Below are positions 9,860 to 21,494 of a stretch of 32,415 nucleotides of DNA, in pieces. This DNA comes from Gemmatimonadota bacterium (GTDB lineage: Bacteria > Gemmatimonadota > Gemmatimonadetes > Gemmatimonadales > Gemmatimonadaceae), in NCBI GenBank assembly GCA_002737115.1, contig NSHR01000019.1, positions 1 through 32,415 of the forward strand. Direction: 5' to 3'. A program made the translations under genes and the position numbers. The notes under the pieces were generated by a model. That model ran no database searches. It was given only the letters and a program-made list of their open reading frames with translations, and was not told where the DNA came from. How positions within the stretch are numbered: the stretch's first letter is position 1; every line of letters starts with the position of its first letter.

Positions 9860-9976
9860 GTTCGCGCGAAGGCCGCGAAGGGCCGCGAAGATGCGCGAAG
9901 AACAGCAACGACAAAGAAAATTTCTTTATGCTGCTCTTCGCGATCCTTCGCGGCCCTTCGCAAGCTTCGCGCGAAC
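9860..9976. repeat. 117-bp palindromic repeat, family A, solo copy
   Basis: Two 42-base arms (9860-9901 and 9935-9976) match at 36 of 42 positions when one is reverse-complemented, each starting GTTCGCGCGAAG. Each arm is built from repeated GCGAAG units. The centre holds a further perfect 7-bp stem (AAAGAAA, 9913-9919, with TTTCTTT, 9921-9927), so the whole element can fold as one long hairpin. Positions 9856-9890 are identical over 35 bases to 19933-19967. No gene was found in 9794-10034 other than this element. Confidence 0.85.
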
Positions 9977-10702: not shown

Positions 10703-13651
10703 TTATCGCGACGATTTCCGGGCGCGCGCGATGCCATGCGGTTGCGGACCACGGCGCACACGCGCGGCGGCCGACGGCTCGAGCGACCCGAGTAGGCGCG
10801 CCTCCGCCGCTACGCCTGATGCGGCGAGGAACGCGGCGGAGCCACTCGCCGTGACGATCGTGCTGTTGTAGCCGACCGCGAATCCGGCTGAGGCGTTGGG
10901 CGCCCCCGACACGCTCCACAGCAAGTCCGTCGTGCCGGTGGCCATCGACGTCCACGTGGTGCCGTTGAAGCGCAGCATCGTGCCGTTGTTGCCCGTCGCG
11001 TACAAGTCGAACTCACTCGGACCCCAAAGCGACGTCAGCCCCGGCGTGACGCCGGGCTGCAGTGTGGACCACGCGGTACCGTTGTAGCGATACGCCGCGC
11101 CCGCACTGCCGGCGGCGTTCGCACCGTCGGTGACCACGTTCGTGGCACCGGTGAGCCAGAGGCCGGCCAGGGTGCTGGTGGCTGGAGTTGGGAGTGCGGT
11201 GAACACCGCGCCAGTCAGCCGCCACACCGCGCCGTTCTCACCGGCCGCATAGACATCGGCCGCCGAAGCACCGTACACCGCCCAGAGTGGTACTCCCACG
11301 GTCGTGAGCAGCGTCCACGCCGTGCCATTGAAGCGCAGGATCTCACCGGCCTTCGTGGTTGCATACACGTTGTTGCCGTTCGTGCCCCAGACCGCCGACA
11401 CGGTACTCGTACTGGGAATCGCCATCGGCACCCACGCGCTCCCGACGAGGCGCAGCATGGTGCCCGACTCGCCGCCGATGAACCCTTGGCCGGCAGCGGT
11501 GGCCCATACGCTGGTGAGCGTGGCCTGCGTTGGCACGGCGATCTTCGTCCAGCTGCTGCCGTTCCAGCGATATACGAACCCGAACTCGCCCACCGCCCAG
11601 GCGTTATTCGCCGCCACCGTCCATACGTCGAGGAGATCCGGGGCGAGGTTGTTCGTCGTCCACGCCGTACCGCCGGCATCGGCACTGCGCAGCACCGCCC
11701 CCCGTGCGCCGCTGGTCCACGCGGTGCCCGCGGCATCCACACTCACACCGAACAGCTTCGGCGCATAGGGCGTGTTCACGAGTGTGGCGGTGGTGCCGTC
11801 GAGCTGCGCCACGCCGCCGTCGCCGACCACATAGCGTCGACCACCGTTGGCTGCCGAACCGCTCACCTGATACAAGTTGCCGGCCAATCCACCCACGCTA
11901 AGCACCGACCACGTCGTGCCGTTCCAGCGCAGCAGCGTGCCGTTGGCACCCACGATCACCACGTCGGTGGCGCTGAGTCCATGCACGCTGTACAGCAGCT
12001 CCGCGCTCGGCACCATGACGCGCGACCACGTGCTGCCGACGCGACGCAACACGTCGCCATTGGCACCAACGGCGTACACCACGTTGTCGCCGCCCCACAC
12101 GCCGTTCATGGTCTGCGTGGAGTTGGTGGTTTCCGTGCTCCACGTATTGGTGGCCAGCCGCAACACCGTGCCGTTGTTGCCCGCCGCCCACGCCACGGTC
12201 TGGCTCTCCACCCAGATGGCGTTGAGCGTCTGCGTGGTGCCCGAGGGCATCGTGCTCCACGCCGTACCGTTCCAGCGCGCCACGGCGCCAGTGGTGCCCA
12301 CCGCGATGATGTTCGTGGCCGACGAGCCATGGAGTGCCAAGTAATCAGCATTGTTCGACAGCGACAGCGTCCATGTGGTGCCGTTCCAGCGATAGATGTC
12401 GCCCAGGATATCGATCGCAAACACGTCCGTGGCGCTCACGGCATAAATCGACAGCAGATCGTCGCGCAACACGCCACCCAGTCGGGTTGCGGTCCACGCG
12501 GTCGCCAAGCGGGGCACCACACTCAGCGTGACCGTGTCGCGCTTGGTGCCATCGGCCACTAACGTGGCGGTGATCAACGTGCTGCCGAGGCTCACCGCGC
12601 TGACGACGCCTTCGGCGCTGATCGTGGCGACACCGCCGGCGCTGGACGTCCACCTGACGCCCGTGGCGAAACCCGGATCGACACTCACGATGGCCGTGAG
12701 CGCGGTGCTGGTGCCGCTATTGATGGCGATGCTGCGCTGCACGATGTTCACCGTAAGCGGACGAGCCGGTACTGTGATAGTGCTGGTGGCCCGGCGCGTG
12801 GTGTCGGCAGTGGAGAGCACGGTGACGGTGGTGCTGCCCAAGGCCACTGCGGTCACGAGGCCGGTGGCGCTCACGGTGGCCGCGGCGGGATTACTGGAGC
12901 GCCACGTCAACGTCTGCGCGACGCCCGCGTCGGCGGTGATCGTTGATGTGAGTTGCTGTGTGGTGTTGATGAACAGCGAGGCCGTGGTCGGTGTCACGGT
13001 GACCGCGCGGACGACGGGAACCACGTTTACCGTGGTCGTGGCCCGCAGCGTGGTATCGCCAACCGAGACCGCCGTGATCGTCACCGTTCCCAGCGCGACA
13101 CCCGACACCACCCCCCCCGCCGACACGTTGGCGATCGTGGCGGCACTCGTGCGCCACGTCACCGTGGTGGGGAGTCCGGCCTCGATCACCACGACGGCCT
13201 GTAGCGCCTGCGATTGTCCGGTGCCCAGCGACACGGCGGCCGGGGTCACGCTGACGCCGCGCATGGCCTGCACGGTGATGCTGGCCGTGGTACTCACGCG
13301 GGTGTCGGCAACCGAGGTTGCGCGGATGGTGGCGGTCCCGATCGCGATCGCCGTCACGAGCCCCGTGCCGTTCACGGTGGCGAGCGTGGGGGACTCACTG
13401 CTCCAGGTCACGCCGGTGCCGGCGCCGTTGATGGCGTCGACGACGGCGCTGAGCGATTGCGTTTCCCCTATGCGGATCGCGGTGACGCTGGGCGTCACCG
13501 CGACGCCTCGTACGGTGGGTGGATTCACCACCACCGGTGGACCCGCGGAGTCGCCCCCGCCGCAGGCCGCGAGCACGAGCGTAACCATCATGGCCGGGGA
13601 ACGGCGCAGAATCGACGGGAGGTGAGTCCAAGACGACGAAGCTGAGTGCAT
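10703..13651 (-). CDS. large surface lipoprotein: four Ig-like Big_2 domains plus about 14 propeller repeats
   Basis: A 982-residue exported protein. A lipoprotein signal ends in LVLAAC (Cys30) and a Gly/Pro-rich spacer follows. Four bacterial Ig-like (Big_2) domains of about 82 residues occupy roughly 47-378, each with the pattern VTP...W.SS...ATV...G.VTA...G. From about 395 to 935 there are 13 full and one divergent copy of a roughly 39-residue unit of the type LxxVWG...VYAVGxxGxVLRxNGTxWT. Such units form beta-propeller blades in surface proteins, and 14 would suit two seven-bladed propellers. The last 25 residues are strongly basic and conserved in the broken paralogue nearby. The likely role is adhesion or matrix binding at the cell surface; the ligand is unknown. 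It appears monocistronic with its own terminator. Confidence 0.85.
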   Translation of the reverse strand: MHSASSSWTHLPSILRRSPAMMVTLVLAACGGGDSAGPPVVVNPPTVRGVAVTPSVTAIRIGETQSLSAVVDAINGAGTGVTWSSESPTLATVNGTGLVTAIAIGTATIRATSVADTRVSTTASITVQAMRGVSVTPAAVSLGTGQSQALQAVVVIEAGLPTTVTWRTSAATIANVSAGGVVSGVALGTVTITAVSVGDTTLRATTTVNVVPVVRAVTVTPTTASLFINTTQQLTSTITADAGVAQTLTWRSSNPAAATVSATGLVTAVALGSTTVTVLSTADTTRRATSTITVPARPLTVNIVQRSIAINSGTSTALTAIVSVDPGFATGVRWTSSAGGVATISAEGVVSAVSLGSTLITATLVADGTKRDTVTLSVVPRLATAWTATRLGGVLRDDLLSIYAVSATDVFAIDILGDIYRWNGTTWTLSLSNNADYLALHGSSATNIIAVGTTGAVARWNGTAWSTMPSGTTQTLNAIWVESQTVAWAAGNNGTVLRLATNTWSTETTNSTQTMNGVWGGDNVVYAVGANGDVLRRVGSTWSRVMVPSAELLYSVHGLSATDVVIVGANGTLLRWNGTTWSVLSVGGLAGNLYQVSGSAANGGRRYVVGDGGVAQLDGTTATLVNTPYAPKLFGVSVDAAGTAWTSGARGAVLRSADAGGTAWTTNNLAPDLLDVWTVAANNAWAVGEFGFVYRWNGSSWTKIAVPTQATLTSVWATAAGQGFIGGESGTMLRLVGSAWVPMAIPSTSTVSAVWGTNGNNVYATTKAGEILRFNGTAWTLLTTVGVPLWAVYGASAADVYAAGENGAVWRLTGAVFTALPTPATSTLAGLWLTGATNVVTDGANAAGSAGAAYRYNGTAWSTLQPGVTPGLTSLWGPSEFDLYATGNNGTMLRFNGTTWTSMATGTTDLLWSVSGAPNASAGFAVGYNSTIVTASGSAAFLAASGVAAEARLLGSLEPSAAARVRRGPQPHGIARARKSSR

Positions 13652-16837: not shown

Positions 16838-16961
16838 AACGGCCAACTGCTTAGGGAGCAGGAGGGAGAGTCTCAGGAAGGAGGAGGCAGGGACACGACG
16901 CCGCTGTCCTGCACCCTCCACCCTGACACCCTCCCTCCTGCCTCCTAAGCCGTTGGCAGTT
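16838..16961. repeat. 124-bp imperfect palindrome, family B, upstream of leuS
   Basis: Arms 16842-16895 and 16905-16957 pair with about nine mismatches and one bulge over 54 bases around the 9-base loop CGACGCCGC. Pairing extends outward to 16838 and 16961. The ends read GCCAACTGCTTAGG on the left and CCTAAGCCGTTGGC on the right. The left arm is purine-rich (GGAGG units). It begins 3 bases after the glycosylasparaginase stop, so it may also serve as that gene's terminator. It contains no open frame of interest. Confidence 0.8.
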
Positions 16962-16968
16962 CATGAAT

Positions 16969-16990
16969 GCCTCCTAAGCAGTTGGCAGTT
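16969..16990 (+). repeat. direct repeat of the family-B palindrome end, in the leuS leader
   Basis: The 22 bases at 16969-16990 match 16940-16961 (GCCTCCTAAGC..GTTGGCAGTT) with only one difference. This extra copy of the right end lies 16 bases before the leuS start, so the leuS leader is largely repeat-derived. No good Shine-Dalgarno sequence is present between it and the ATG. Confidence 0.75.
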
Positions 16991-17005
16991 GCAGTAAGTT
17001 GCGGT

Positions 17006-19438
17006 ATGTCCGACATCACTCTTCCGACCCCCTACACACCCGCGCTGGTCGAGCCCAAGTGGCGCGCCCGATGGGCTGAACGCGGCACGAACCATGCCGC
17101 CCTCGAGAGCGCCGAGCGTCCGTTCTACGCGCTCATGATGTTCCCGTATCCGTCGGCCGAAGGGCTGCACGTGGGGAACCTGTTTGCGTTCACTGGCAGC
17201 GACATCTCGGCCCGCTATCACCGGCTGCTGGGCCATGATGTGTTCCAGCCGCTCGGCTACGATGCGTTCGGGATCCACTCGGAGAACTACGCGCTGAAGG
17301 TCGGCGCGCACCCGATGGAGCTGACGCCCAAGAATGTCGCGAATTTTCAGCGGCAGCTCGAGCGCGCGGGGTTGATGGTCGATTGGCGTCAGAAGGTCGA
17401 CACGTCGAGCCCGGACTACTACAAGTGGACGCAGTGGGTGTTCCTGCAGCTCTACAAGCAGGGCCTCGCGTACAAAAAGGCCGCGGCCGTGAATTGGTGC
17501 CCCACCGACATGACGGTGCTCGCCAACGAGCAGGTCGAAGGCGGGTTGTGCGAGCGGTGCGGCACCGCCGTCGAGCAGCGTTTCCTCGAGCAATGGTTTT
17601 TCCGTATCTCGGCGTATGCCGAGCGTCTGCTGAACAACCTGGACTGGCTCGATTGGTCGCCGATTACCAAGTCCGCGCAGAAGAACTGGATCGGCCGCTC
17701 TGAGGGCGCTGAGCTGTCGTTCCGCGTGGCAGGCCACGACGAAACGGTCACGGTGTTCACGACGCGCCCCGATACGATTTTCGGCGCGACGTATCTCGTG
17801 CTCGCGCCCGAGCATCCGCTGGTGGCCACCCTCACGACCGACGCGCAGCGCGACGCCGTGCAGGGCTATCAGGACGCCACCAAGAAGCAGGACCTGATCG
17901 CGCGGAAGAGCAGCAAGGAGAAGACGGGCGTGTTCACCGGCGCGACGGCGGTGAATCCGGCCACGGGCGCGAACATGCCGATCTGGATCGCCGACTACGT
18001 GCTCATGCAATACGGCACGGGTGCGATCATGGCCGTGCCCGGACACGACGAGCGCGACTTCGAGTTCGCACACGTGTTCGATCTACCCATCGTGCGCGTG
18101 GTGGCCGGACCCGACGACGCCGCCGACACGCCGCTCGGCGAGTCGGCGTACACCGATGATGCGCAGGGCCGCCTGGTGAATTCCGGTGCCTTTGACGGAC
18201 AGCCGGTGGCCGAGGCGAAACGCACGGTGAGCGAGTGGCTCACCGCTGGCGGACATGGCTCGCAGGTGGTGAACTTCCGCTTGCACGACTGGTGCATTTC
18301 CCGTCAGCGCTACTGGGGACCACCGATCCCGATCATCTACTGCGACGCGTGCGGCACGGTCCCCGTGCCCGAGTCGCAGCTGCCGGTGGAGTTGCCGTTC
18401 ATCCCCGACTTCAAGCCCGACGACTCCGGCGTCTCGCCGCTGGCGCGCCACGAAGAGTGGTATCGCGTGCCGTGCCCCACGTGCGGCGCCCCCGCCCGTC
18501 GGGAAACCGATGTGTCGGACACGTTCCTCGACAGCGCGTGGTACTTCCTGCGCTATCCGAGCGCGACGCGCAGTGATGTGGCGTTCGACACCGACCTCAC
18601 GAAGCGGTGGCTGCCGGTGGATTCGTATATCGGCGGCAACGAGCACGCGGTGTTGCACCTGTTGTACTCGCGCTTCGTGACCATGGTCATGAAGGACGCG
18701 GGGCACATCGATTTCGAAGAGCCGTTCACGCGGTTCCGCGCGCACGGCATGATCATTCGCGAAGGCGCGAAGATGTCGAAGTCGAAGGGCAACGTGATCA
18801 ACCCCGATGTGTACATGGAAGAGTGGGGCGCCGATGCGTTCCGCATGTATCTCATGTTCCTCGGGCCGTACGAAGAGGGCGGCGACTTCCGCGATCAGGG
18901 CATCAGCGGCGTGCGTCGCTTCCTCGACCGGCTGTGGGCCTCGGTGCGTGATGCGCGCACCGATGTGGCAACCGATGTGCACGTGACGCGTCAGCTGCAC
19001 CGCACGATCAAGAAGGTCGGCGAGGATTCGGCGAATCTGAGCTACAACACGGCGATCGCCGCCATGATGGAATGTTTGAATCACGTGCGGTCGGGCGACC
19101 GCGCGGTGCACCGTGATGAGGTGCTGCCGCTGGTGCAGTTGGTGGCAGCCTATGCCCCGCATTTCGCGGAAGAGTGCTGGGAACAGCTGGGGCACACCGG
19201 CAGCGTGTTTGATGCCGGCTGGCCGACGTTCGATCCGGCCTTGCTCGTGGACGACGAAGTCGAGCTCGTGGTGCAGGTAAACGGGAAGGTGCGCGGCAAG
19301 CTGCGCGTGGCCGTGGATGTGACGCAGGAAGACGCGATGGCCGCCGCGATGGCCGATGCGGGCGTCGCTCGATTCGTGGTCGGCGAGATCAAGAAGGTGA
19401 TCTTCGTGCCCAAGCGACTGCTCAACATCGTGGTGTGA
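17006..19438 (+). CDS. leuS: leucyl-tRNA synthetase
   Basis: Class I aminoacyl-tRNA synthetase charging tRNA-Leu, cytoplasmic and essential. The 810-residue product has the HIGH-type motif as HVGN (55-58, after FPYPSAEGL) and the KMSKS loop at 589-593. An inserted CP1 editing domain contains TTRPDTIFGATYLVLAPEHP and the aspartate-bearing GHDERDFEFA segment. A CxxC pair (CPTCG) sits near 493 just before the DTFLDSAWYFLRYP stretch, a zinc-site-like feature of bacterial LeuRS. The C-terminal VNGKVRGKLRV domain is intact. The ATG at 17006 gives the normal N-terminus; the frame upstream lies in repeat DNA. Both flanks carry repeats, yet the gene looks complete. It converges with the GxxExxY gene 7 bases beyond its stop. 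Confidence 0.98.
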   Translation: MSDITLPTPYTPALVEPKWRARWAERGTNHAALESAERPFYALMMFPYPSAEGLHVGNLFAFTGSDISARYHRLLGHDVFQPLGYDAFGIHSENYALKVGAHPMELTPKNVANFQRQLERAGLMVDWRQKVDTSSPDYYKWTQWVFLQLYKQGLAYKKAAAVNWCPTDMTVLANEQVEGGLCERCGTAVEQRFLEQWFFRISAYAERLLNNLDWLDWSPITKSAQKNWIGRSEGAELSFRVAGHDETVTVFTTRPDTIFGATYLVLAPEHPLVATLTTDAQRDAVQGYQDATKKQDLIARKSSKEKTGVFTGATAVNPATGANMPIWIADYVLMQYGTGAIMAVPGHDERDFEFAHVFDLPIVRVVAGPDDAADTPLGESAYTDDAQGRLVNSGAFDGQPVAEAKRTVSEWLTAGGHGSQVVNFRLHDWCISRQRYWGPPIPIIYCDACGTVPVPESQLPVELPFIPDFKPDDSGVSPLARHEEWYRVPCPTCGAPARRETDVSDTFLDSAWYFLRYPSATRSDVAFDTDLTKRWLPVDSYIGGNEHAVLHLLYSRFVTMVMKDAGHIDFEEPFTRFRAHGMIIREGAKMSKSKGNVINPDVYMEEWGADAFRMYLMFLGPYEEGGDFRDQGISGVRRFLDRLWASVRDARTDVATDVHVTRQLHRTIKKVGEDSANLSYNTAIAAMMECLNHVRSGDRAVHRDEVLPLVQLVAAYAPHFAEECWEQLGHTGSVFDAGWPTFDPALLVDDEVELVVQVNGKVRGKLRVAVDVTQEDAMAAAMADAGVARFVVGEIKKVIFVPKRLLNIVV

Positions 19439-19445
19439 TCCACGA

Positions 19446-19889
19446 TCACGGGTGGACCGGCGCGATGGGCGGCCGGTTCACACGGAGCTGCGGCGAGTAT
19501 TCAGGTGGCAGATCGTTTACCATTCGCTTCACACCATCCATCAGCCGCGGCATTCCGCAGTTGATCACCAACCCGAGCGGCAGCTCGGCCAGTCGCAAGT
19601 ATGTCAGCAGTTGCTTCGCGTGTTCTGGTGAATTTGCTTCTTGTGCCTTCACTTCGATGATCAGCCGATTGTCGACGATCAGGTCCGCGCGAAACGCATT
19701 GTCATAGCGATCTCCCTCGAAGTCGAAGGAGATCGCTTTTTGTCGTTCCACCGTGAACCCATCACGCACCAGCGTGCGGAAGAGAAATGTTTCGTAGGCG
19801 TTCTCGAGCATGCCTGAACGAAACTTCTTGTGAATTCTGAGCGCCGCATTGATGCATGCACCCGTCAGGTCGTCAGGATGGATTTGCAT
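19446..19889 (-). CDS. GxxExxY protein (PDDEXK_3-like)
   Basis: A 147-residue member of the GxxExxY family, related to the PD-(D/E)XK nuclease fold; its biological role is not established. The name motif is Gly26-Met-Leu-Glu29-Asn-Ala-Tyr32. The nuclease-like core follows as Asp69 (FRADLIV) and Glu79-Val-Lys81 (IIEVKA), consistent with an intact metal site. The N-terminal helix LTGACINAALRIHKKF is typical. The ATG at 19889 is chosen because conserved sequence begins right there; the frame is open further upstream only because it runs toward the palindromic repeat at 19937. Base composition appears less GC-rich than leuS, suggesting a different history. It converges with leuS and is headed by a family-A repeat 47 bp away. 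Confidence 0.85.
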   Translation of the reverse strand: MQIHPDDLTGACINAALRIHKKFRSGMLENAYETFLFRTLVRDGFTVERQKAISFDFEGDRYDNAFRADLIVDNRLIIEVKAQEANSPEHAKQLLTYLRLAELPLGLVINCGMPRLMDGVKRMVNDLPPEYSPQLRVNRPPIAPVHP

Positions 19890-19936
19890 TTGCCGTGCTC
19901 GCTTCGGCGAGTGAAGTGACTGGGCCGCGCCAGCTG

Positions 19937-20041
19937 GTTCGCGCGAAGGCCGCGAAGGGCCGCGAAGGCACGCGAAGAAAAGCAAGAGAAAAACTGAAGC
20001 TGTTGCCGTTCTTCGCGACCCTTCGCGATCTTCGCGCGAAC
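19937..20041. repeat. 105-bp palindromic repeat, family A, next to the GxxExxY gene
   Basis: Same ends as the 9860-9976 copy: GTTCGCGCGAAG at 19937-19948 and its reverse complement at 20030-20041. Over the first 31 bases the two arms match at 28 positions; the left arm has one more GCGAAG unit than the right. The left end shares 35 identical bases with 9856-9890. The right flank (20042-20057), reverse-complemented, also matches the left flank of the other copy (9844-9859) at 12 of 16 positions (core AGTCCG), so the element extends beyond the arms on that side. Confidence 0.85.
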
Positions 20042-20122
20042 CAACGGACTGTCCGCCGCCACGAAGCTATCCGCACGCCCACGAACCACTGTCATCCAGG
20101 CACGGCGAGCAGAGCCCTCCGA

Positions 20123-20300: not shown

Positions 20301-21494
20301 ATGCCAGATAATGTGATACCGCAGCGCTTCGCGCGCCGGTTCGCCACCGATCCCTCGCGCCGACTGTTTGCGCTCTCGTCGGTGGCCCTCCTTGCCCTCG
20401 CTGCCTGCAAAGAGCCGCAACGTCCGCCGCGCCCCGCGCCCGTCGTGTCCACGATGACGGCGACGAAGGGACCCCTGCCGTTCATCGTCTCCGCGAATGG
20501 GCAAATCGAGCCCAATCGGACCGTCGCCGTGCAGTCCCTCGTATCCGGCATGCTCACTCGGGTGGCGATCGCCGAAGGCGATGAAGTGGCCCAAGGCCAG
20601 GTGCTCTTCCAGATCGATTCCCGACCGTTCCGCGCCGAACTCGATCGGCTGCAGAGCACCCTGGCGCGCGATCAGGCCACCCTCGTCCGTGCCCGTGGCG
20701 ACTCGGTGCGCTTCGCGGGGCTGGCCAAGGACGGCTACGTCACCCGCCAGCAGCTCGAACAAACCTTTGCGGAGGCGTCGGCCCTCGCCGCCACCGTGGC
20801 GGCGGGGAAAGCCTCGCTGGAGCGGGCACGTCTCGACCTCGAGAACACCACCATTAAAGCGCCGATCTCCGGACGTACCGGCCAGATCATGCTTCGCGTG
20901 GGCAGCCTCGTGCGGGCGCAGGCCGACCCGGCGTTGCTCACCATCAACGAACTGCAGCCGGTGCTGGTGCGCTTCACGGTGCCCGAGCAGGCCTTCGAGG
21001 AAATGCGCCGCCGCTCGGGCCTCGATCAGGCGCTCCCGGTGAACATCGTTCCCAACGTGGGCGACAGTAGCCAGAAGATCACCGGCACGCTGACCTTCAT
21101 CGACAACGCGGTTGATCGCGCCACCGGGACCGTGCTGCTCAAAGCGCGGGTGCCGAACGCCGATCGTTCCCTCTGGCCCGGCCAGTTCGTGTCGGTGGGT
21201 CTTGAACTCTCCGTCGATCAGGACGCCATCACCGTGCCGTCGGAAGCGGTCGTCACGACCACGAACGGCGCCTTCGTGTACGTGGTTGAAGACGGCAAGG
21301 CCAAGCGCGTGGTGGTGAAGGTGGGCCGCCCCGCCGGCACGCTCGTGAAGCTCGACAGCGGCCTGGTTGGCGGCGAGCAGGTCATCATCGAAGGACAGAA
21401 TCGCCTGCAGGACGGCGCCAAGGTCGAGTTGCGGGGTTCGCTCTCGAAGGGCGGCCCGAGCGGCGCGGGCAGGAAGCGAGGAGCCACCCCGTGA
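20301..21494 (+). CDS. RND efflux periplasmic adaptor (membrane-fusion) lipoprotein
   Basis: Bridges an inner-membrane RND pump and a TolC channel. The 397-residue product has a lipoprotein signal (lipobox LALAAC, Cys36), a first beta-barrel and lipoyl half (VSGMLTRVAIAEGDEVAQGQVLFQID, about 81-107), and an alpha-helical hairpin (about 110-180). The second lipoyl half follows (TTIKAPISGRTGQIMLRVGSLV), then the beta-barrel and membrane-proximal domains with the conserved LWPGQFVSV stretch. The sequence is closest in style to the MdtA/AcrA group. Its TGA stop overlaps the pump's GTG start by four bases, so the two are translationally coupled. No TolC gene follows. Confidence 0.93.
   Translation: MPDNVIPQRFARRFATDPSRRLFALSSVALLALAACKEPQRPPRPAPVVSTMTATKGPLPFIVSANGQIEPNRTVAVQSLVSGMLTRVAIAEGDEVAQGQVLFQIDSRPFRAELDRLQSTLARDQATLVRARGDSVRFAGLAKDGYVTRQQLEQTFAEASALAATVAAGKASLERARLDLENTTIKAPISGRTGQIMLRVGSLVRAQADPALLTINELQPVLVRFTVPEQAFEEMRRRSGLDQALPVNIVPNVGDSSQKITGTLTFIDNAVDRATGTVLLKARVPNADRSLWPGQFVSVGLELSVDQDAITVPSEAVVTTTNGAFVYVVEDGKAKRVVVKVGRPAGTLVKLDSGLVGGEQVIIEGQNRLQDGAKVELRGSLSKGGPSGAGRKRGATP

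Follow-up and report, generated by a model that had tools for sequence, protein, structure and literature searches.

Why a gene of the GxxExxY family should stand directly beside a long palindrome built of short repeated units, and why a similar palindrome should recur elsewhere without such a gene, is the question raised by contig NSHR01000019.1 of a Gemmatimonadota bacterium (assembly GCA_002737115.1), of which a stretch of 32,415 nucleotides was analysed (hereafter the window). In a preliminary description of this stretch, gene and repeat had been taken for a parent element and the lone palindrome for its non-autonomous offspring. Comparison with other genomes reveals a recurrent architecture of GxxExxY genes and inverted arrays, units that match on both sides of the gene, a link between carriage of the gene and the genomic load of repeats, and joint variation of protein residue 9 and repeat-unit base 5. 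With moderate confidence, we read the system as a unit-recognising PD-(D/E)XK protein encoded by a gene-in-hairpin parent locus, with solo copies that would be served in trans and hairpins that would be cut and copied. The features from which the analysis starts are:

19446-19889, minus strand: GxxExxY gene (PF13366/TIGR04256), 147 amino acids, with a predicted PD-(D/E)XK fold and with E29, D69, E79-x-K81 and Q93-xxx-Y97 kept
19935-20043, no strand: inverted arrays of the CGCGAAG unit forming a palindrome immediately 5' of the gene, with arms at 19935-19967 and 20011-20043
9860-9976, no strand: CGCGAAG palindrome with no GxxExxY gene (solo), 3' of a Peptidase_S13 gene

The gene is an intact member of the GxxExxY/PDDEXK_3 family, as first described. 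Its reading frame matches TIGR04256 with 105 bits (cut-off 35) and PF13366 with 101 bits (cut-off 22), and its product carries both G-xx-E-xx-Y and D...E-x-K. G26, E29, Y32, D69, E79 and K81 are invariant in 18 aligned GxxExxY sequences, and the PD-(D/E)XK core with its QxxxY motif is retained across 61 sequences (D69, K81 and Q93 invariant, E79 and Y97 nearly so). The best match of the predicted PD-(D/E)XK fold is 4ic1, the nearest relative in fold being a Cas4. Pfam and NCBIfam scans of the window protein (E up to 1) returned PF13366 and TIGR04256 only, with no HuH/Y1 and no transposase domain. The ratio of nonsynonymous to synonymous divergence (dN/dS) between the window gene and its relative in genome G074 (locus L134, 86% identical) is 0.055, with dS near saturation; it ranges from 0.05 to 0.23 in eight GxxExxY pairs, a ninth pair being identical. 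The content of guanine plus cytosine (GC) is 0.559 in the gene, 0.645 in leuS and 0.65 in the whole window, and the gene is indeed less GC-rich than leuS, as had been noticed. A role in defence was considered and rejected, the matches being only weak (RTasPDDEXK 0.0026, Cas4 0.0029, and PHROGs 0.0097 and 0.0081 to a family annotated as of unknown function). The window's assembly (2.05 Mb, 57% complete; genome G000) holds four PF13366 genes. A paralogous GxxExxY pair, L147 (contig C33 of G000) and L141 (G074), has no unit array beside it, and the frame of L141 continues into an apparent neighbouring gene; this pair may represent a differently employed branch.

Both palindromes of the window fold far better than expected. 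A gap of 45-47 bp separates the gene from the long palindrome of GCGAAG units reported beside it, whose arms are 91% complementary (hairpin energy z -8.7, matched by 0 of 200 shuffles), and the second copy, standing alone, has arms 85% complementary (z -9.4). Top hairpin scores in the window were 27 and 34; under a simple shuffle, one of five shuffled windows reached a top score of 17 and the other four had nothing of at least 16. The string GTTCGCGCGAAG occurs 16 times in the incomplete assembly, and the pattern read backwards 0 times. No known RNA family reached its gathering score in the window. A third strong palindrome (window 16838-16961; score 34, z -8.2), made of AGGAGG-like units, lies between an asparaginase gene and leuS and may belong to the PF05635 class described below.

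Three sets of loci were used to examine this arrangement elsewhere: 85 Gemmatimonadota loci (the window plus 84 further stretches, of which 81 come from relatives in the phylum and three from the window's own assembly); a diverse set, namely the best 80 of at least 584 loci from a scan of genome contigs via the peptide LGPGLLES[VA], which by record title include Sphingomonas, Planctomycetota, Verrucomicrobiota, Bacteroides, cyanobacteria, Chloroflexota and others; and 80 hand-chosen places in the phylum of Lacipirellula (hereafter the second phylum), the first 60 from different genomes and 20 added. Start codons were assigned by rule. The unit pattern was defined after inspection of Gemmatimonadota palindromes and then applied elsewhere, as C[AG]C[ACGT][AG]A[AGT] for counts of arrays near the gene, agreement of upstream and downstream units and the out-of-sample residue test; as CRCRRAK for genome array counts in both phyla and for genomes with nested palindromes; and as CRCNRAK for the 18 genomes reached via the diverse loci.

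Of the Gemmatimonadota loci, 20 of 85 have a hairpin scoring at least 20 within 300 bp upstream of the gene and 25 of 84 within 300 bp downstream, compared with 0-4 of 80-84 in each other 300-bp bin. Many of these palindromes are inverted arrays of a short unit that varies by gene (CGCGAAG, CACAGAG, CACGGAG, CACGGAT, CGCGGAT and others), and those on both sides of one gene look alike. The unit approximates CRCNRAG or CRCNRAT, with a start-to-start spacing of 8-11 bp. Within 300 bp of the gene, arrays of at least three units occur in 66 of the 80 diverse loci (upstream in 50, downstream in 51, both in 35; far bins 27/1715), in 30 of the 85 Gemmatimonadota loci (far bins 11/1806) and in 51 of the 80 second-phylum loci, the last count being confined to the immediate surroundings of the gene. 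The repeats are thus enriched near the gene, as the idea of a linked pair had required. The regular form is array, gene, inverted array, which places the gene in the loop of an inverted repeat; the left array often stops within ~20 bp of the assigned start codon, the inverted right array starts at or inside the stop end, and the element is 417-589 bp long in 44 regular loci. Inverted ends around the gene (score at least 36) were detected in 51 of 71 diverse and 31 of 84 Gemmatimonadota loci, versus 6/633 and 5/821 control comparisons; 9/80 diverse and 1/85 Gemmatimonadota loci had too short a flank and were left out.

The absence of a matching repeat on the far side of the window gene had been counted against a simple transposon. 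With arrays on one or both sides of most diverse loci, this statement is probably wrong, and the window itself offers a candidate:

19475-19499, no strand: candidate decayed second end of the element, within the 3'-terminal part of the coding sequence; translated as SPQLRVNR; GGTTCACACGGAGCTGCGGCGAGTA

We read this protein tail as a decayed arm because its counterpart in 7 of the 80 diverse loci is a repeat arm translated in frame (SASPRLRVNQ type). Judged from this resemblance, 19475-19499 may be the decayed end of the same element, and the gene's far side is perhaps not empty.

Carriage of the gene and repeat load are associated in both phyla. PF13366 genes are present in 49 of 150 genomes of the window's phylum and 70 of 149 of the second. 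Genome array counts are pattern matches of three units, overlaps included, and one palindrome yields at least two matches; they are inflated because matches beside the gene are included. On this measure, the window's phylum has 2521 matches in its 49 gene-positive and 114 in its 101 gene-negative genomes (backwards pattern 143 and 59), and the second phylum 4620 and 535, respectively (backwards pattern 88 and 37). At least four matches occur in 32/49 genomes with the gene versus 5/101 without (p=3e-15), and in 57/70 versus 17/79 in the second phylum (p=1e-13), both p values ignoring kinship; for at least ten matches the figures are 29/49 versus 3/101 and 49/70 versus 8/79. Equal abundance in genomes lacking the gene, the outcome named beforehand as fatal to the idea, was therefore not what we found. 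The association in the window's phylum holds among both PF05635-positive (29/42 versus 4/40) and PF05635-negative genomes (3/7 versus 1/61), and also within six genera that hold both gene-positive and gene-negative genomes (p=0.0003). All 18 genomes reached through diverse loci have arrays well above control, least clearly G173 (51 versus 16), and some genomes hold hundreds of arrays.

The unit also agrees with the gene it accompanies. Within a locus, upstream and downstream units differ by a distance of 0.71, compared with 3.11 after shuffling (n=62; the lowest of 2000 shuffles gave 2.53). In six genomes with a single gene, the genome's other arrays resemble the gene's own unit (rank 6 of 720 permutations), three of the six sharing one unit; here G004, G129 and G127, for which no rows were listed, were left out of a set of eight genomes and G025 added, and the rows used were 24 of those listed for G073, 14 of 16 for G123, 13 of 18 for G115 and part of those for G025, rows near the gene and repeats being excluded. 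Among 165 loci, 97 with arrays of at least three units served for distance tests; protein distance correlates with unit distance in these (r=0.41), in 32 loci below 55% identity (0.30) and with GC controlled (0.31).

A scan of residues in the 66 non-redundant loci among the 97 linked residue 9 to unit base 5 (z 12), T9 occurring with G in 24/25 and A9 with A in 8/8. In an out-of-sample set of 80 previously unused second-phylum loci, 51 of them with arrays, T9 occurred with G in 24/24, A9 with A in 5/5 and V9 with A in 3/3, S9 being divided (8 G, 5 A). Pooling all 148 loci gave 62 G and 2 A for T9, 17 A and 1 G for A9, and 39 G and 14 A for S9. On a tree built with the residue-9 column masked, parsimony requires 26 changes of base 5 versus 35 for shuffled data, and 25 independent pairs differing in base 5 comprise 14 concordant and 1 discordant pair, 6 of the same residue class and 4 not scorable (sign test on 14:1, ~0.001). 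The discovery scan also linked residue 10 to base 5, E10 being found with G in 15/15 discovery and 14/14 new loci, and D10 with G in 1/1. The simplest account of the co-variation, and a probable one, is that the GxxExxY protein recognises the array unit.

The gene's surroundings and the solo site were also compared in related genomes. The gene is flanked by leuS and a HlyD/AcrB efflux pair:

16967-19438, plus strand: leuS, left flank, used for site comparison
20301-21494, plus strand: HlyD-type membrane-fusion gene, right flank of the gene site

Among 28 genomes compared at the leuS site, G000, G166 and G165 carry the gene with its palindrome, and in G074 the relative of the gene is found 2 kb away from leuS. 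A remnant is left in G168, where the 3' portion of the gene continues into a partial palindrome. Neither is present in G169, G170, G163 and G164, and the remaining genomes have no such gene or palindrome directly after leuS. The solo site was examined in 24 loci (G163, G167 and G151 not placed, G165 doubtful): the CGCGAAG palindrome occurs in G000, G150 and G074, the latter with the start of a second, is absent in G168, G166, G170 and G164, and other palindromes occupy the site in G019, G039, G068, G152, G159 and G162. The spacer 3' of the Peptidase_S13 gene (L318-L340) contains different palindrome families in different species of the Gemmatimonas group, as if it were a hot spot. Palindromes of one unit are nested within those of another in G073 (L290-L294) and G092 (L297-L299), with CACAGAG outer and CGCAGAG inner shells round a central G-rich/C-rich hairpin; in G092 one side shows as many as six alternating shells, and the contig end cuts off the other. 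Further along the window, at 10703-13651, a gene for a Big_2 (bacterial Ig-like) domain protein contains DNA repeats spaced 114-117 bp.

On this basis a mechanism may be proposed. The protein would recognise a unit of approximately C-R-C-N-R-A-G/T repeated in inverted arrays, and the parent locus of array, gene and inverted array would fold into a hairpin with the gene in its loop. Solo palindromes would be derivatives without the gene that rely on the resident protein in trans. The protein would bind arrays and cut or nick the hairpin once extruded, or else one formed by single-stranded DNA at the replication fork; repair or re-insertion would then place copies of the hairpin in intergenic spacers, occasionally within palindromes already present. 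Co-location, the load link and co-variation lend good support to the earlier proposal, in which a parent gene has gene-less repeat copies and its protein recognises the repeat. That the protein binds, cuts and copies its repeats, and so moves them, is what we infer, with hairpin cutting and spreading suggested by analogy.

Several observations weigh against this account. After subtraction of eight matches per gene copy, the association persists in the window's phylum (23/49 versus 5/101, p=3e-9) and falls to 31/70 versus 17/79 in the second (p=0.005); because discounting gene-adjacent matches weakens the latter, our confidence is slightly lowered. Fewer than four matches were found despite the gene in 17/49 and 13/70 genomes, and at least four without it in 5/101 and 17/79, one of them with 227. 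The exceptions include the gene-negative genomes G228 (93 matches), G240 (227) and G049 (40), and the gene-positive G335, with seven PF13366 genes and zero matches; lost genes, incomplete assemblies or other units could explain such genomes. In the diverse set, hairpins scoring at least 20 are few (upstream 4/77, no higher than background; downstream 10/74; other bins 0-4), because the arms there mostly flank the gene. Gene or palindrome is absent in some relatives, and neither the leuS nor the solo site yielded a base-exact empty site, because spacers differ too much between species. No target-site duplication was detected in 44 loci, no offset or length standing out (best z 3.1 over all tried). 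With the window protein as query, none of 50,697 phage records contained the gene; three queries found it in only 6, 7 and 4 of 72,556 plasmid records, and a search limited by peptide patterns in one viral contig. An origin of the gene in mobile DNA was accordingly set aside.

The co-variation has its own exceptions. The window protein and L134 combine T9 with base-5 A, L134 being a member of the discordant pair, and base 5 must be read differently in these two proteins; one A9 locus carries base-5 G. A charge code pairing K/R10 with A (7/7 in discovery) was abandoned when the new loci gave 3 A and 4 G, as was the strongest scan signal, H20 with base 7 = G (z 22; 59/60), which was weak in new loci (37 G, 6 T). 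Among the 10 most divergent loci the Mantel test shows no signal, and linked inheritance can supply part of the correlation between protein and unit.

The best surviving alternative, which we nevertheless regard as rather unlikely, is recognition without mobility, in which GxxExxY would be a host-kept DNA-structure protein, similar to Cas4 or a resolvase, that binds or trims array hairpins. Other enzymes, replication slippage or REP-associated tyrosine transposases (RAYTs; REP, repetitive extragenic palindrome) would then spread the repeats, and arrays adjacent to the gene would be its own binding sites; they may also supply its ribosome-binding site. It leaves unexplained why genomes without the gene mostly lack arrays, why a genome's arrays resemble its gene's unit and why genes lie between matching inverted arms.

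It is also conceivable, if quite improbable, that the hairpin arrays are independent selfish elements in whose loops small genes, GxxExxY and separately PF05635, shelter as in 23S rRNA, the protein having no role toward the unit. This possibility draws on the PF05635 (four-helix bundle) genes, which are multi-copy in the window's phylum (82/150 genomes) and, in 20 of 30 loci (L260-L289) versus 3 of 114 control comparisons, also lie between inverted arrays, of another unit class (GGAGTCA, GGTATCA, AGAGTTG and others); L260, L273 and L289 are cut by contig ends and possibly misplaced. They form a second, different gene-in-hairpin class, and the window protein has no match to the PF05635 profile, the Pfam scan giving PF13366 only. 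However, unit class follows protein family, with GxxExxY-type arrays beside 0 of the 30 PF05635 loci, and passengers would not account for the co-variation of residue 9 with unit base 5. That the palindromes are ordinary hairpins (terminators or chance) with an unlinked neighbour gene is barely credible, for although they are intergenic and fold strongly, distance enrichment, agreeing units and the gene-repeat association in two phyla all argue against it.

The proposed unit-recognising, hairpin-copying system may be compared with known ones. In REPIN/RAYT systems (TnpA_REP, REPtron), hairpins scattered over the genome are believed to depend on a resident enzyme, according to the parts of the sources consulted (PMC3116915; PMC8266576). 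The same parts describe an enzyme gene next to hairpin repeats, numerous intergenic copies that lack the gene, a separate repeat flavour for each copy of the enzyme, and insertion of repeats into or next to other repeats, all of which have their likeness here. The parallel drawn in the preliminary description hence holds for the arrangement and fails for the protein family, as the HuH/Y1 domain of RAYTs was not found in the GxxExxY protein, which has a PD-(D/E)XK core instead. A single REP measures 20-40 bp in the part of the source covered (PMC3733652), whereas the GxxExxY arms are arrays of regularly spaced units, often with the gene between them; neither GTAG, the RAYT REP tag, nor its complement CTAC occurs at window 19931-20045. 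As in an insertion sequence with miniature inverted-repeat transposable elements, the gene lies between terminal inverted repeats (at most decayed in the window) and gene-less inverted-repeat copies exist; unlike an insertion sequence, there is no transposase domain match, no target-site duplication, few plasmid copies and none in phage records.

A small open reading frame inside an inverted repeat also characterises the 23S rRNA intervening sequence with its S23 protein (PF05635), of which the Coxiella element is called selfish and excised by RNase III in the part of the source seen (PMC4990558). The protein is unrelated, the unit class is different and the element is not within rRNA here. 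The GxxExxY protein shares with Cas4 a PD-(D/E)XK core with a QxxxY motif. Cas4 proteins have four conserved cysteines and an iron-sulfur cluster; the window protein has only two cysteines and hence no four-cysteine cluster site. No cas family was found among the seven window proteins scanned against Pfam.

No settled function of the GxxExxY family was found in open-licence literature, in agreement with the preliminary description, and no description of its link to repeats; subscription papers and preprints lay outside the search, and novelty is therefore provisional. The name GxxExxY received passing mentions in two papers, and the repeat string matched only a study of fish environmental DNA.

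Tentatively, these loci may represent a widespread repeat system in which a PD-(D/E)XK nuclease, rather than a HuH or DDE transposase, would read the unit via a residue located where its first helix begins and would copy hairpins, gene and unit switching specificity together. PF13366/GxxExxY genes are common. A link to repeats would account for the hundreds of arrays that some genomes hold, and it would provide the family with a substrate that can be tested and deduced from the adjacent DNA. Residue 9 and unit base 5 offer a direct handle for a specificity swap. If true, the system would parallel the RAYT-REP partnership on the basis of an unrelated protein.
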